Source: Acidobacteriaceae bacterium (lineage in GTDB: Bacteria > Acidobacteriota > Terriglobia > Terriglobales > Acidobacteriaceae). From it: DNA of 40,568 nt. Both the position numbers and the translations under genes were made by a program. Position 1 is the first letter of the stretch, and each line of letters begins with the position of its first letter. Positions 24,774 to 39,705 of this stretch are shown here, in pieces. Location: positions 1 to 40,568 of the forward strand of contig PLJN01000168.1 of the NCBI GenBank assembly GCA_003140235.1, read 5' to 3'. The notes under the pieces were generated by a model, which was not told the origin of the DNA, searched no databases, and saw only the letters and a program-made list of their open reading frames with translations.

Positions 24774-24922
24774 GTCATTCCGACCCTGAGCTTGCGAAGG
24801 GGAGGAATCTGCTTCCCGCTGCCTAGGGAGATTCTCTGTCTACAAGCGATCGGCTTTTGCGCAGGGGCGAGCATTCTCAAAACCTGAAAAGAAAGCAGAT
24901 TCCTCACTGCGTTCGGAATGAC
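24774..24922. repeat. Dispersed inverted-repeat element, copy 1 (149 bp)
   Basis: The ends are GTCATTCCGA (24774-24783) and its reverse complement TCGGAATGAC (24913-24922). A second arm pair GAGGAATCTGCTT / AAGCAGATTCCTC lies inside. The left arm has an extra insertion CCCTGAGCTTGCGAAGGG, itself self-complementary. A close relative sits at 38054-38189. Similarity continues upstream into GAGTATCTTTCAT (24755-24767). There is no coding capacity of its own; it looks like a MITE-like or REP-like element. Confidence 0.85.
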
Positions 24923-36286: not shown

Positions 36287-37126
36287 TCAATCCTTCACAG
36301 CTGTCTTTGTCCCCGCCGCTCTTCGTTCAAATATGACGGCCAGCCGGGAGGAAGCGCGCGCAGGCGACAGCCTTTGCAGGATATCAATCTGACGGGCGTC
36401 AGGCCCAATGAGTATCCGCGGTTTGTTGCGCAAGATGCCTTTCACGATGGTCAGCGCCGCCGTTTTCGGAGAGGTCGGGGTCAGCCTCTTGAACCGCTCT
36501 TTGTCTTGCGCGGCTCTTGCTGGCTGTGCTGACGCCCCCGTCCGCGCATTCTCCGCAATGGCGGTGCGAATGCCTCCGGGATGGACGCAAGTCACGTGAA
36601 TCCGCGTTCCCCGGAGTTCACTTCGCAACGACTCAGTAAAACCGCGGACGGCAAACTTGCTGGCCGCGTACGCTGTTTGGCCGGGCGGGCCCACCAGTCC
36701 AAAAACGCTGGATACATTCACAATGTGGGCTTCCGGTTCCCGCTCCAATAGCGGAATAAAAAACTTGCAGCCGTAGACCACGCCCCAGAAGTTGATTTTG
36801 AAAAGCCATTCCATGTCCGCCAAAGAAATTTCAGCAAACGTCCCATGGAGCGCAACCCCGGCATTGTTGATCAGGAGCGTGGCGCGGCCGAAATCCTTGC
36901 CTACCTGGCCGGCGAAGGCCTCGACCGCCGAGACATCCGACACATCGACGACATAAGTCCTGACCGTGGCCGAGCCGAGCATTTTGCTGGTTTCTTCAAG
37001 ACCAGCGCGGTTGACATCAGCTATGGCGAGCTGAGCGCCGGCGGATGCAAGTTCCACCGCCACGGCCCGTCCGATCCCGGACCCCGCCCCGGTAACCACC
37101 GCAACGATGCCGCGAATTTCACGCAT
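36287..37126 (-). CDS. Short-chain dehydrogenase/reductase (SDR)
   Basis: A 279-residue NAD(P)-dependent oxidoreductase. The classical SDR marks are all visible: cofactor loop TGAGSGIG (residues 12-19), an acidic residue after strand 2 (IADVN, favouring NAD), VVDVSD, NNAG, catalytic Ser in NVSSVFG and YAASK with Tyr and Lys. HPGGIRTAI completes the cofactor site. GGAGG lies 6 nt upstream of the ATG. The last 30 residues are basic and probably disordered. The substrate is unknown. Confidence 0.92.
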   Translation of the reverse strand: MREIRGIVAVVTGAGSGIGRAVAVELASAGAQLAIADVNRAGLEETSKMLGSATVRTYVVDVSDVSAVEAFAGQVGKDFGRATLLINNAGVALHGTFAEISLADMEWLFKINFWGVVYGCKFFIPLLEREPEAHIVNVSSVFGLVGPPGQTAYAASKFAVRGFTESLRSELRGTRIHVTCVHPGGIRTAIAENARTGASAQPARAAQDKERFKRLTPTSPKTAALTIVKGILRNKPRILIGPDARQIDILQRLSPARASSRLAVIFERRAAGTKTAVKD

Positions 37127-37172
37127 CAGACACCTCCGAAAAGAGCGCTGGGAAGTCTAGCATGAATTGATT

Positions 37173-37389
37173 GGGTAATTTAGTAACTTGGTAATTGGGT
37201 AATTTCGAACCGCATCCCGCACGGGAATGTTGCACACCAGTAAGAATCACGACGTAGAGACGCGGCACTGCCGCGTCTAACTGTTGGACTGCGGAAAGAT
37301 CACGAGGTCATGGTGAACTTCACGCATTTCTTCTCAATTACCCAATTACCAACTTACCCAATTCCCCAATTCCTCTCGCCCAATTCCTT
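37173..37389. repeat. Inverted octamer arrays flanking a G+C hairpin
   Basis: Left array: GGGTAATT, TAGTAACT, TGGTAATT, GGGTAATT (37173-37204). Right array, inverted: AATTACCC, AATTACCA, ACTTACCC, AATTCCCC, AATTCCTC (37336-37375), with one more AATTCCTT at 37382-37389. Between them a perfect 9-bp hairpin AGACGCGGC-ACT-GCCGCGTCT occupies 37258-37278. No gene is supported in 37127-37423. Confidence 0.8.
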
Positions 37390-37423: not shown

Positions 37424-37954
37424 ATGCCGTCCCTCAGCAGCAAGCTTGCGCCCATCACCCTGCCCGATACGGACGGGCAGCCGGTCCAGCTTGGATCTTT
37501 GTGGGCCAGCCGTCCGGCGGTTGTGGTTTTTCTGCGCCATTGGGGTTGAATCTTTTGCCAGGAGCACGTTGCGCAGTTGCGCGAACATCAGCAGGCTTTC
37601 CAGGACAAAGGAGCACAACTCGCCGCCATCGGCCTGGGAGGCGCGGATTACGCCCGGCTCTTCCGCGAGAAAACCGGCATCACGTTTCCGCTCTTGATTG
37701 ACGAAGAACGTCTGGCCTACAAGGCCGCCGAGCTCCGCAAGGCTTCCGTGGCCCACTTATTTCGCGCGGACAACAAGCTCGCGCGTCAGCGCGCCAGCGC
37801 CGCCGGACATCGCCAGCACAAAATCGGCAAGAATCCCTTTCAACTCGGCGGCAGTTTTGTATTTGGGCCCGGCAATAAGGACTATTTTGCCCACATCAGC
37901 CAGACCTTCGGCGACAATGCGTCGCCCGCCGATCTGCTGGCGGCGATTCCGTAG
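37424..37954 (+). CDS. SelL/PRXL2-type redoxin, probable selenoprotein (in-frame UGA = Sec42)
   Basis: A 176-residue thioredoxin-fold protein of the AhpC/TSA-like PRXL2 (SelL-related) family, presumed cytosolic thiol/selenol oxidoreductase or peroxidase. N-terminal strands read ITLPDTDGQPVQLGSLW and RPAVVVFLRHWG. An in-frame TGA (37547-37549) follows, then IFCQEHVAQLREHQQAF in the same frame. In relatives this site is the first Cys of CxxC (RHFGCxFC pattern, from memory), so UGA gives U42xxC45. The frame then continues undisturbed: GAQLAAIGLGGADYARLF, ITFPLLIDEERLAY, GGSFVFGPGNK, ending at 37954. A SECIS-like hairpin lies at 37568-37586. Standard gene callers split it in two or drop one half. 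Sec insertion needs selA/B/C/D elsewhere in the genome. A nonsense mutation is the alternative, less likely given the exact position. Confidence 0.82.
37568..37586 (+). promoter_or_regulatory. Candidate bacterial SECIS hairpin
   Basis: Within the coding sequence, 18 nt after UGA: stem GTTGCGC (37568-37574) pairs with GCGC-G-AAC (37579-37586) with one bulged G (37583). The loop is AGTT (37575-37578), starting 25 nt after UGA, with G as second loop base. This meets the known bacterial rules of loop distance and an early loop G; pairing was done by eye. Confidence 0.6.
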
Positions 37955-38308
37955 GTGAAAGAACGGCCTTTCAAGGCGATGAGAGTAATCAAACGCGATT
38001 CGATTTGTATCAGGGCTTTAGCATGTCCTGAGCTGAGTGTCTTTCATCTCATTGTCATTCCGACCCTGAGCTTGCGAAGGGGAGGAATCTGCTTTCCACT
38101 GCCAGGCGAGACTCTCGTCTCCAAGCTGCCGGGACAAACATTCTCCCAGGCTCAAAAGAAAGCAGATTCCTCACTCCGTTCGGAATGACAAACGCGCTGG
38201 CCGGCGCCAGGGCTGAAGCCCGCTTTCGTAAGACATTCTTTCACGGCCCTAAAGGAGCCGTTCTTCCACCGTTTCGCGCTGAAGCGCGATGAAAGGGCCG
38301 TTCTCCAC
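37955..38308. repeat. Composite repeat region between redoxin and aminotransferase
   Basis: No gene. The outer ends are inverted relatives: GTGAAAGAACGGCCTTTCA (37955-37973) and TGAAAGGGCCGTTCTCCAC (38290-38308), with a third copy of the CCGTTCTnCCACC core at 38258-38270. Two hairpins share a UGAA loop: GGGC-TGAA-GCCC (38210-38221) and CGCGC-TGAA-GCGCG (38275-38288). The dispersed element copy 2 is nested inside. Confidence 0.65.
38054..38189. repeat. Dispersed inverted-repeat element, copy 2 (136 bp)
   Basis: Same ends and arms as the element at 24774-24922: GTCATTCCGA and TCGGAATGAC, with GAGGAATCTGCTT and AAGCAGATTCCTC inside. The left half is nearly identical for about 45 bp; the centre has diverged and is 13 bp shorter. 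Upstream similarity includes GAGTGTCTTTCAT (38035-38047). Confidence 0.85.
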
Positions 38309-38385: not shown

Positions 38386-39705
38386 ATGACCAAAGAAGAG
38401 ATCATCAAGAAACATAAACAGTACCTCTTCCCTTCCATCAGCACGTATTACACCGAACCGCTGGTCACCGACCACGGCAGCATGCAACACCTCTGGGACG
38501 TGGATGGAAACAAGTATCTCGACTTTTTTGGCGGCATTGTCACCATCTCGGTCGGCCACGCCAACCCGCGCATCACATCGAAAATCAAGGCCCAGGTGGA
38601 CAAGCTGCAGCACGCCTCCACCGTGTTCCCGAATGAAGCAATTGTGGCCCTGGCGGAAAAGCTAGCACAAATCACTCCGGGCGATATCAGCCAAAGCTTT
38701 ATCAGCAACAGCGGCACGGAAGCCAATGAAACCGCGGTCCAACTGGCACGCATGTCCACCGGCAATTATGAGGTGGTAGCGCTGCGTCACGGCTACAGCG
38801 GCCGTTCACAACTCGCCCAATCGCTCACCGGACACAACACCTGGCGCCGTTCGCTCCCTGTCTCCGACCCGGGAATTGTGCATGCCATGAACGCGTATTG
38901 CTATCGCTGCCCGCTCGGCAAGACCTACCCCAGTTGCGAAGTCGCCTGCGCCCAAGACCTGGAGTCTGTGATCCAGACGAGCACGTCGGGGCAGATTGCC
39001 GCATTCATTGCCGAACCCATCCAGGGCGTCGGCGGATTCATTACTCCGCCCAAGGAGTATTTCAAGATCGTTTTCAAGATCGTAAAAGACTACGGCGGGC
39101 TGTTCATCTCCGACGAAGTGCAAACCGGCTGGGGACGCACCGGCAAACGCTGGTTCGGAATTGAACAATGGGAAGTCACACCGGACATTATTACGTCGGC
39201 CAAAGGGCTGGCCAACGGCACACCGGTCGGCGTGACCATGACCCGGCCGGACATCGCCGCAAGTTTCAAAGGTCTGCAAATCTCCACCTTTGGAGGAAAT
39301 CCAGTTACGTCAGTTGCCGCCAAAGCGACTATTGATCTGATTGAGGAAGACCGGCTCATGGACAACGCGGAAGTCGTCGGAAATTATTTCCGTCAGGGAC
39401 TCGAAGGCCTGAAGGACAAACACGATCTAATCGGCGACGTTCGCGGCATGGGACTCTTGCAGGCCCTGGAACTGGTAAAAGACCGCACCACAAAAGCGCC
39501 GGCCGCACAGGAGACCAACCAGTTCATGGAAGAGTGCCGCAAGCGCGGGCTGCTGGTCGGCAAAGGCGGGCTTATGGGAAATGCTATCCGCATGTCGCCG
39601 CCGCTGAACATCTCCAAGGCCGACGTGGGTGAAGCCATCGGCATCATGGACCAATCACTTACAGCCATGTCGCCGGCCCTGGCAGGCGCCGCAAGCCGGG
39701 GATAA
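38386..39705 (+). CDS. Class III aminotransferase (AGXT2-like)
   Basis: A 439-residue PLP enzyme of aminotransferase class III, related to alanine-glyoxylate aminotransferase 2 and other omega-amino acid transaminases. Motifs: LWDVDGNKYLDFFGGI, FISNSGTEANETAVQLAR (PLP phosphate site), the Asp in LFISDEVQTGWGRTG, and the Schiff-base Lys273 in TSAKGLANG. FGGNPVTSVAA follows. A cluster CYRCPLGKTYPSCEVAC (Cx2Cx8Cx3C) is typical of this subgroup. AAGGGA sits 9 nt before the ATG; a TAGAAT (38330-38335) may be the -10. Amino donor and acceptor are not evident from context. Confidence 0.93.
   Translation: MTKEEIIKKHKQYLFPSISTYYTEPLVTDHGSMQHLWDVDGNKYLDFFGGIVTISVGHANPRITSKIKAQVDKLQHASTVFPNEAIVALAEKLAQITPGDISQSFISNSGTEANETAVQLARMSTGNYEVVALRHGYSGRSQLAQSLTGHNTWRRSLPVSDPGIVHAMNAYCYRCPLGKTYPSCEVACAQDLESVIQTSTSGQIAAFIAEPIQGVGGFITPPKEYFKIVFKIVKDYGGLFISDEVQTGWGRTGKRWFGIEQWEVTPDIITSAKGLANGTPVGVTMTRPDIAASFKGLQISTFGGNPVTSVAAKATIDLIEEDRLMDNAEVVGNYFRQGLEGLKDKHDLIGDVRGMGLLQALELVKDRTTKAPAAQETNQFMEECRKRGLLVGKGGLMGNAIRMSPPLNISKADVGEAIGIMDQSLTAMSPALAGAASRG

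Follow-up and report, generated by a model that had tools for sequence, protein, structure and literature searches.

A redoxin gene in the stretch of DNA analysed here (the window, 40,568 nucleotides of an Acidobacteriaceae genome) contains an internal stop codon that is almost certainly read as selenocysteine (Sec), and the family to which it belongs is already known to databases. The TGA at codon 42 is, with little room for doubt, the Sec codon of a SelL-related redoxin of the thioredoxin fold, whose decoding would be directed by a SECIS hairpin. The initial annotation of the window had proposed a new selenoprotein, a UxxC redoxin with kinship to SelL and PRXL2. The selenoprotein and the kinship hold, the former through the Sec machinery present in the genome and the conservation of both the TGA and the SECIS. 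The novelty of the family does not, as discussed below. The features of the locus are collected in Table 1.

Table 1. Features of the redoxin locus and its neighbours (window coordinates).
Feature	Coordinates	Strand	Remarks
Putative short-chain dehydrogenase	36287-37126	-	Upstream neighbour; named from sequence reading
SelL-related redoxin CDS	37424-37954	+	176 residues, putative Sec at 42; TAG stop included
UGA, predicted Sec residue 42	37547-37549	+	Conserved as TGA in each full-length close orthologue found
Cys45 of U-I-F-C, putative resolving residue	37556-37558	+	Column Cys or Sec in 46/46 rows of alignment A2
Predicted bacterial SECIS apical hairpin	37569-37584	+	In-frame; 6-bp stem UUGCGC/GCGCGA; loop AGUU at 37575-37578
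Putative aminotransferase	38386-39705	+	Downstream neighbour; named from sequence reading

The translated frame has a lone TGA, in the context RHWG-U-IFC, and is terminated by a TAG. This TGA occupies the first position of a [U/C]xxC site, in agreement with the initial annotation, and the frame shows no other lesion. In Pfam, the read-through protein matches AhpC-TSA_2 (3.1e-14), AhpC-TSA (1.7e-13) and Redoxin (4.3e-10), with 53.7 bits for the PRXL2-type family PF13911 (AhpC-TSA_2) against a cut-off of 27, and the part that follows the TGA matches AhpC-TSA_2 by itself (2.3e-14). The prediction that gene callers would split the gene is borne out by the mechanical list of open reading frames, which holds a separate, TTG-started C-terminal fragment (37577-37954). 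Orthologue alignments start at residues 2-4 of the frame; inspection of the sequence upstream of the ATG revealed no clear Shine-Dalgarno, and the exact start is therefore only putative. With regard to the 41 residues before the TGA, they match no Pfam family and a separate role was not seen for them, which argues against a regulated dual product, whereby selenium shortage would turn the UGA into a stop and release a 41-residue peptide with its own role, while Sec would be inserted when selenium is plentiful. In bacterial selenoproteins generally, Sec insertion competes with termination, which lends the dual product some plausibility, but it appears quite improbable as an account of this gene.

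The TGA is strongly conserved. In a panel of 61 genomes, all 12 full-length close orthologues, the window's included, carry a single TGA, and it always falls in one column of the alignment; the 11 besides the window protein show 60-75 % identity to it. A 13th panel genome with the gene (G002) has it split over two contig pieces, with the TGA in the first, and the gene is present in all nine panel genomes of the window's genus. A sample of 399 genomes of the class, which shares five of its TGA genomes with the panel (the window's among them), gave 26 matches at 1e-20; 25 of these have one TGA and the last is a 5'-truncated copy from which the site is absent. Furthermore, 31 related loci were found in a named genome collection, several contigs of which are identical to panel contigs. 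Of these loci, 28 have an intact TGA, and in L084 a deletion directly follows the TGA; the two others, L086 and L087, are distant Cys forms, although one of the two peptide patterns used in the scan had Cys at the site, a bias that should favour Cys forms. MAGs titled Acidobacteria or subgroups are the source of 25 of the 31 loci. Aligning the homologues at codon 42, as the initial annotation had proposed, shows TGA in each of the close orthologues recovered at full length and Cys in eight more distant relatives, so that the UGA occupies a redox position where homologues have Cys, as in other bacterial selenoproteins.

Alternatively, the TGA might be an error of sequencing or assembly, or the gene might be decaying and the TGA a nonsense mutation. 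The assembly that holds the window (as part of contig C103) is fragmented, with 4.9 Mb in 204 contigs and 89 % completeness, and two decayed copies exist elsewhere: L084:3991-4160, which kept the TGA, lost the hairpin stretch and is frame-shifted, and L139, in which the 5' part is absent. However, the identical TGA recurs in 35 sequences that are mutually no more than 93 % identical, and the frame of the window gene is otherwise intact. Additionally, in 34 comparisons the pS/pN medians are 0.66/0.27 for the 117 nt before the TGA and 0.67/0.24 for the 249 nt after it and, judging by these values, both sides evolve as coding sequence under purifying selection. The chance of an error or of decay is accordingly minute.

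The frame would likewise be open if TGA had been reassigned to, or were read through with, Trp, Cys or any other standard residue in place of Sec, whatever the code. Yet TGA terminates four of the 12 orthologues and so works as a genuine stop here as well, the hairpin next to the UGA is nearly frozen, and the organism possesses tRNA-Sec, SelA, SelB and SelD. Such a recoding is about as improbable as an error, and the error, pseudogene and recoding readings were all rejected on conservation. The components of the Sec machinery, for which the initial annotation had recommended a genome-wide search, were all found over the cut-offs in the window's genome: a tRNA-Sec with the anticodon UCA (tca; 73.1 bits, cut-off 47), a selB with a full-length match (390 bits, cut-off 242), two selA (542 and 540 bits, cut-off 268) and two selD (374.5 and 222.6 bits, cut-off 125). 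The two selA, on contigs C53 and C176 (L053 and L054), are full-length matches of nearly equal score. The 374.5-bit selD (L055:1501-2424, minus strand) has an in-frame TGA of its own near the start of the match (AGUASK), where Sec usually stands in SelD. Another contig of the same genome holds a weak redoxin-like match (L004, C70:61856-62158; 1.4e-5) with one TGA, perhaps a second selenoprotein.

The specificity of these searches was controlled with 14 well-known genomes. Matches to tRNA-Sec, selB and selD were found in all 14, and five, two and two of them, respectively, passed the cut-off; selA matched in four and passed in one. Weak matches are thus unspecific, and only strong matches were relied on. 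Under stricter filters, a convincing tRNA-Sec was not found in four of the 13 panel genomes that bear the gene (G002, G006, G009 and G015; best scores 44.9 to 48.1 bits), the assemblies of which are 81-92 % complete. Three of these have a selB above the cut-off, and G006 has a partial selB match below it.

The predicted hairpin begins 19 nt after the UGA, with a spacing of 25 nt between the UGA and the loop, and its geometry satisfies the constraints for bacterial SECIS elements given in the legend of Fig. 2 of PMC13188914. Its folding energy is -8.1 kcal/mol for 24 nt, which is not extreme, as 8.7 % of synonymous randomisations are equally stable, and an Rfam search of the window returned zero matches. 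The weight of the hairpin, as read from the alignments, lies in its conservation and not in the stability of the window's own copy. Codon usage was compared among 35 near orthologues, after six of 41 had been dropped as more than 93 % identical to another. Counted from the TGA, codons +8 (GCG) and +9 (CAG) are the same in 35/35, +10 is TTG in 34/35 (the commonest codon being expected at a share of 0.37), +11 is CGC in 32/35, and +7 is GTC in 28 of the 29 sequences with Val; the expected shares of the commonest codon for +7 to +11 range from 0.37 to 0.81. The remaining codons mostly vary as expected, with -37, +5 and +30 also at p < 0.002. These p-values are too small because the sequences were treated as independent, and the real control is how these codons differ from the remainder of the gene.

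In the 35 sequences, the six stem pairs are standard in 204/210 cells and the mean folding energy is -10.5 kcal/mol, compared with -5.3 for synonymous randomisations; in the near clade, 214/245 cells of seven pairs are paired. Among 20 further orthologues that were read, L129 retains one pair although both of its positions have changed, and the same pair is lost in L135. In the window's register, 83/154 cells are paired in 22 distant TGA forms, with 46 to 86 for shifted partners, and 31/56 in the eight Cys forms, which are an unfair control of the register since equally distant TGA forms pair no better. Support for the window's register as a set is consequently confined, on these alignments, to the near clade. 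A helix of at least 6 bp lies near the site in 19/22 distant TGA forms and 3/8 Cys forms (raw counts, without a chance control), and seven of the 22 have an AGUU loop in the same place. The conserved TGA and the near-clade hairpin, taken with the machinery, make it very likely that the gene encodes a real selenoprotein which is made as such: SelB carrying Sec-tRNA(UCA) would bind the hairpin just downstream, and UGA-42 would be decoded as selenocysteine.

The family has been described in NCBIfam as NF040769, "SelL-related redox protein". The read-through protein passes the curated cut-off narrowly (122.9 bits against 120), while the genome scan, at the same place, gives 113.9 bits, below the cut-off. 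In a sample of 396 genomes from the phylum, NF040769 is matched over the cut-off 40 times, in 36 genomes; 32 of these matches contain a TGA (three of them two) and eight do not. Since this family exists and most of its matches in the phylum contain a TGA, the word "new" in the initial annotation does not hold if it is taken to mean a new selenoprotein family. Alignment A2 comprises 46 rows that were hand-picked from the loci used for the tree; every row matches NF040769 at E <= 1e-10, and its nine invariant columns include U42 and C45.

Despite this likeness, the window protein falls into a clade of its own character. A tree of 66 rows was obtained from 73 loci after removal of L112 (no match), L084, three short rows and then two duplicates. 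In it, the clade with the motif RH[YW]G-U-[IVL]-FC, which includes the window protein, has Sec in 39/39 members (support 98/99), and the Cys label requires at least three changes elsewhere. Three loci of this clade (L075, L076 and L084) lie on contigs titled Deltaproteobacteria, through either transfer or wrong binning. No Cys form was found in the clade, which comprises Acidobacteriota and these few Deltaproteobacteria-labelled contigs. It may therefore be locked to Sec: a Sec-only clade under a near-invariant SECIS suggests a chemistry that Cys probably cannot do well, although the odds are somewhat against this proposal. In the parts of the literature that were searched, no paper that clearly dealt with this clade or with NF040769 came up.

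Other known systems resemble the window protein to different extents. The predicted AhpC/TSA family selenoprotein (pfam13911 / cd02970) shares the Pfam domain and has Sec first in the motif but, going by its tabled description, is set apart by UxxS in place of UxxC (PMC9312934, PMC13188914). The Prx-like thiol:disulfide oxidoreductase selenoproteins (PF00578) also combine a Trx fold with UxxC or UxxU, according to a 2026 review, the main text of which does not include NF040769 (PMC13188914). Animal SelL is a Prx-like selenoprotein as well (PMC2398784) with Sec in its redox motif; by description, however, it has two Sec, two residues apart (PMC3316567), whereas the window protein reads U-I-F-C and is not a SelL proper. 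Distant SelL-related proteins of the phylum come closer to the animal protein in this respect, as L092, L095 and L103 (from G067, G229 and G205) have two TGA arranged as UxxU (for instance AULPU and GULLU). Two TGA were also found in G392 in the phylum scan.

The kinship with SelL and PRXL2 is corroborated by the narrow pass of NF040769 and by the fold. An AlphaFold2 model built with Cys at position 42 has a mean pLDDT of 95.9 and places this residue directly before helix 43-54. The best fold match in the PDB is human prostamide/PGF synthase (PRXL2B; 9us9, 9usa), with a TM score of 0.80 for 9usa, followed by ResA and, lower, AhpE. The sequences match at 1.2e-6, and U42 and C45 fall without gaps on C44 and C47 of the human protein, which differs in being a Cys enzyme of about 20 % identity; the comparison is one of fold and active-site position. 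PRXL2 is also linked to selenoprotein U.

The same data bear on whether the protein is a canonical peroxiredoxin, reducing peroxides with Sec in the place of the peroxidatic Cys. The Pfam matches to AhpC-TSA and Redoxin, and the presence of AhpE, Bcp and PrxQ among the fold matches, would be in line with this role. Typical peroxiredoxins carry the signature PxxxT/SxxC, and it is absent here: V35 and H39 occupy the P and T/S places relative to U42, as do R38 and U42 relative to C45. With PGF synthase and then ResA as the closest folds, a canonical peroxiredoxin seems unlikely. The protein is better described as an oxidoreductase with one thioredoxin-fold domain, belonging to the AhpC-TSA_2 / SelL-related family. 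Its redox centre of two residues (U/C), combined with the missing peroxiredoxin signature, suggests a reductase linked to thioredoxin, presumably acting on a disulfide or hydroperoxide: the U42 selenolate would attack the substrate, a selenenylsulfide would form as Cys45 resolves the intermediate, and the enzyme would be recycled by thioredoxin or a comparable donor.

With regard to the surroundings of the gene, the initial annotation had described repeat-rich flanks and a possible transfer as a cassette. The first part stands weakly. Upstream, tandem arrays of 8-base units occupy 37170-37205 and 37335-37371, and these units form an imperfect 40-nt inverted pair (37170-37209 / 37331-37370). 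Downstream, a 20-mer at 38055-38074 is identical to one at 24775-24794 (0.01 expected by chance) and is part of a dispersed repeat. Neither these nor the upstream repeats speak for a cassette. The neighbourhood was compared in 40 loci, several of which are the same contig from two collections and some of which have a flank of 1.5 kb only. The putative short-chain dehydrogenase adjoins the gene in five of the seven other same-genus genomes examined (G004-G008, not G001 or G003; G002 was left out), and the putative aminotransferase is conserved beside it in G006 and G008. The redoxin gene has no match at 1e-5 among 72,556 plasmid and 50,697 phage records. Cassette transfer was rejected on the conservation of the upstream neighbour in the genus, the recurrence of the downstream 20-mer at 24775 and this lack of a plasmid or phage match. 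Because the gene is patchy beyond the genus (26/399 class genomes in all), an older transfer or a loss of the gene may still have taken place.

An early survey lists four selenoproteins in three families for Acidobacteriota (PMC1794560), and the window gene adds a firmly supported selenoprotein to this phylum. It also illustrates cleanly how mechanical calling of open reading frames splits a gene. It leaves the general understanding of selenoproteins unchanged. Nevertheless, the clade has a frozen SECIS and shares its phylum with UxxU and CxxC relatives, which would suit it to the comparative enzymology of Sec and Cys. If the clade were indeed locked to Sec, the UxxC, UxxU and CxxC forms would constitute a natural series in which to see what advantage Sec gives a thiol-type redoxin.
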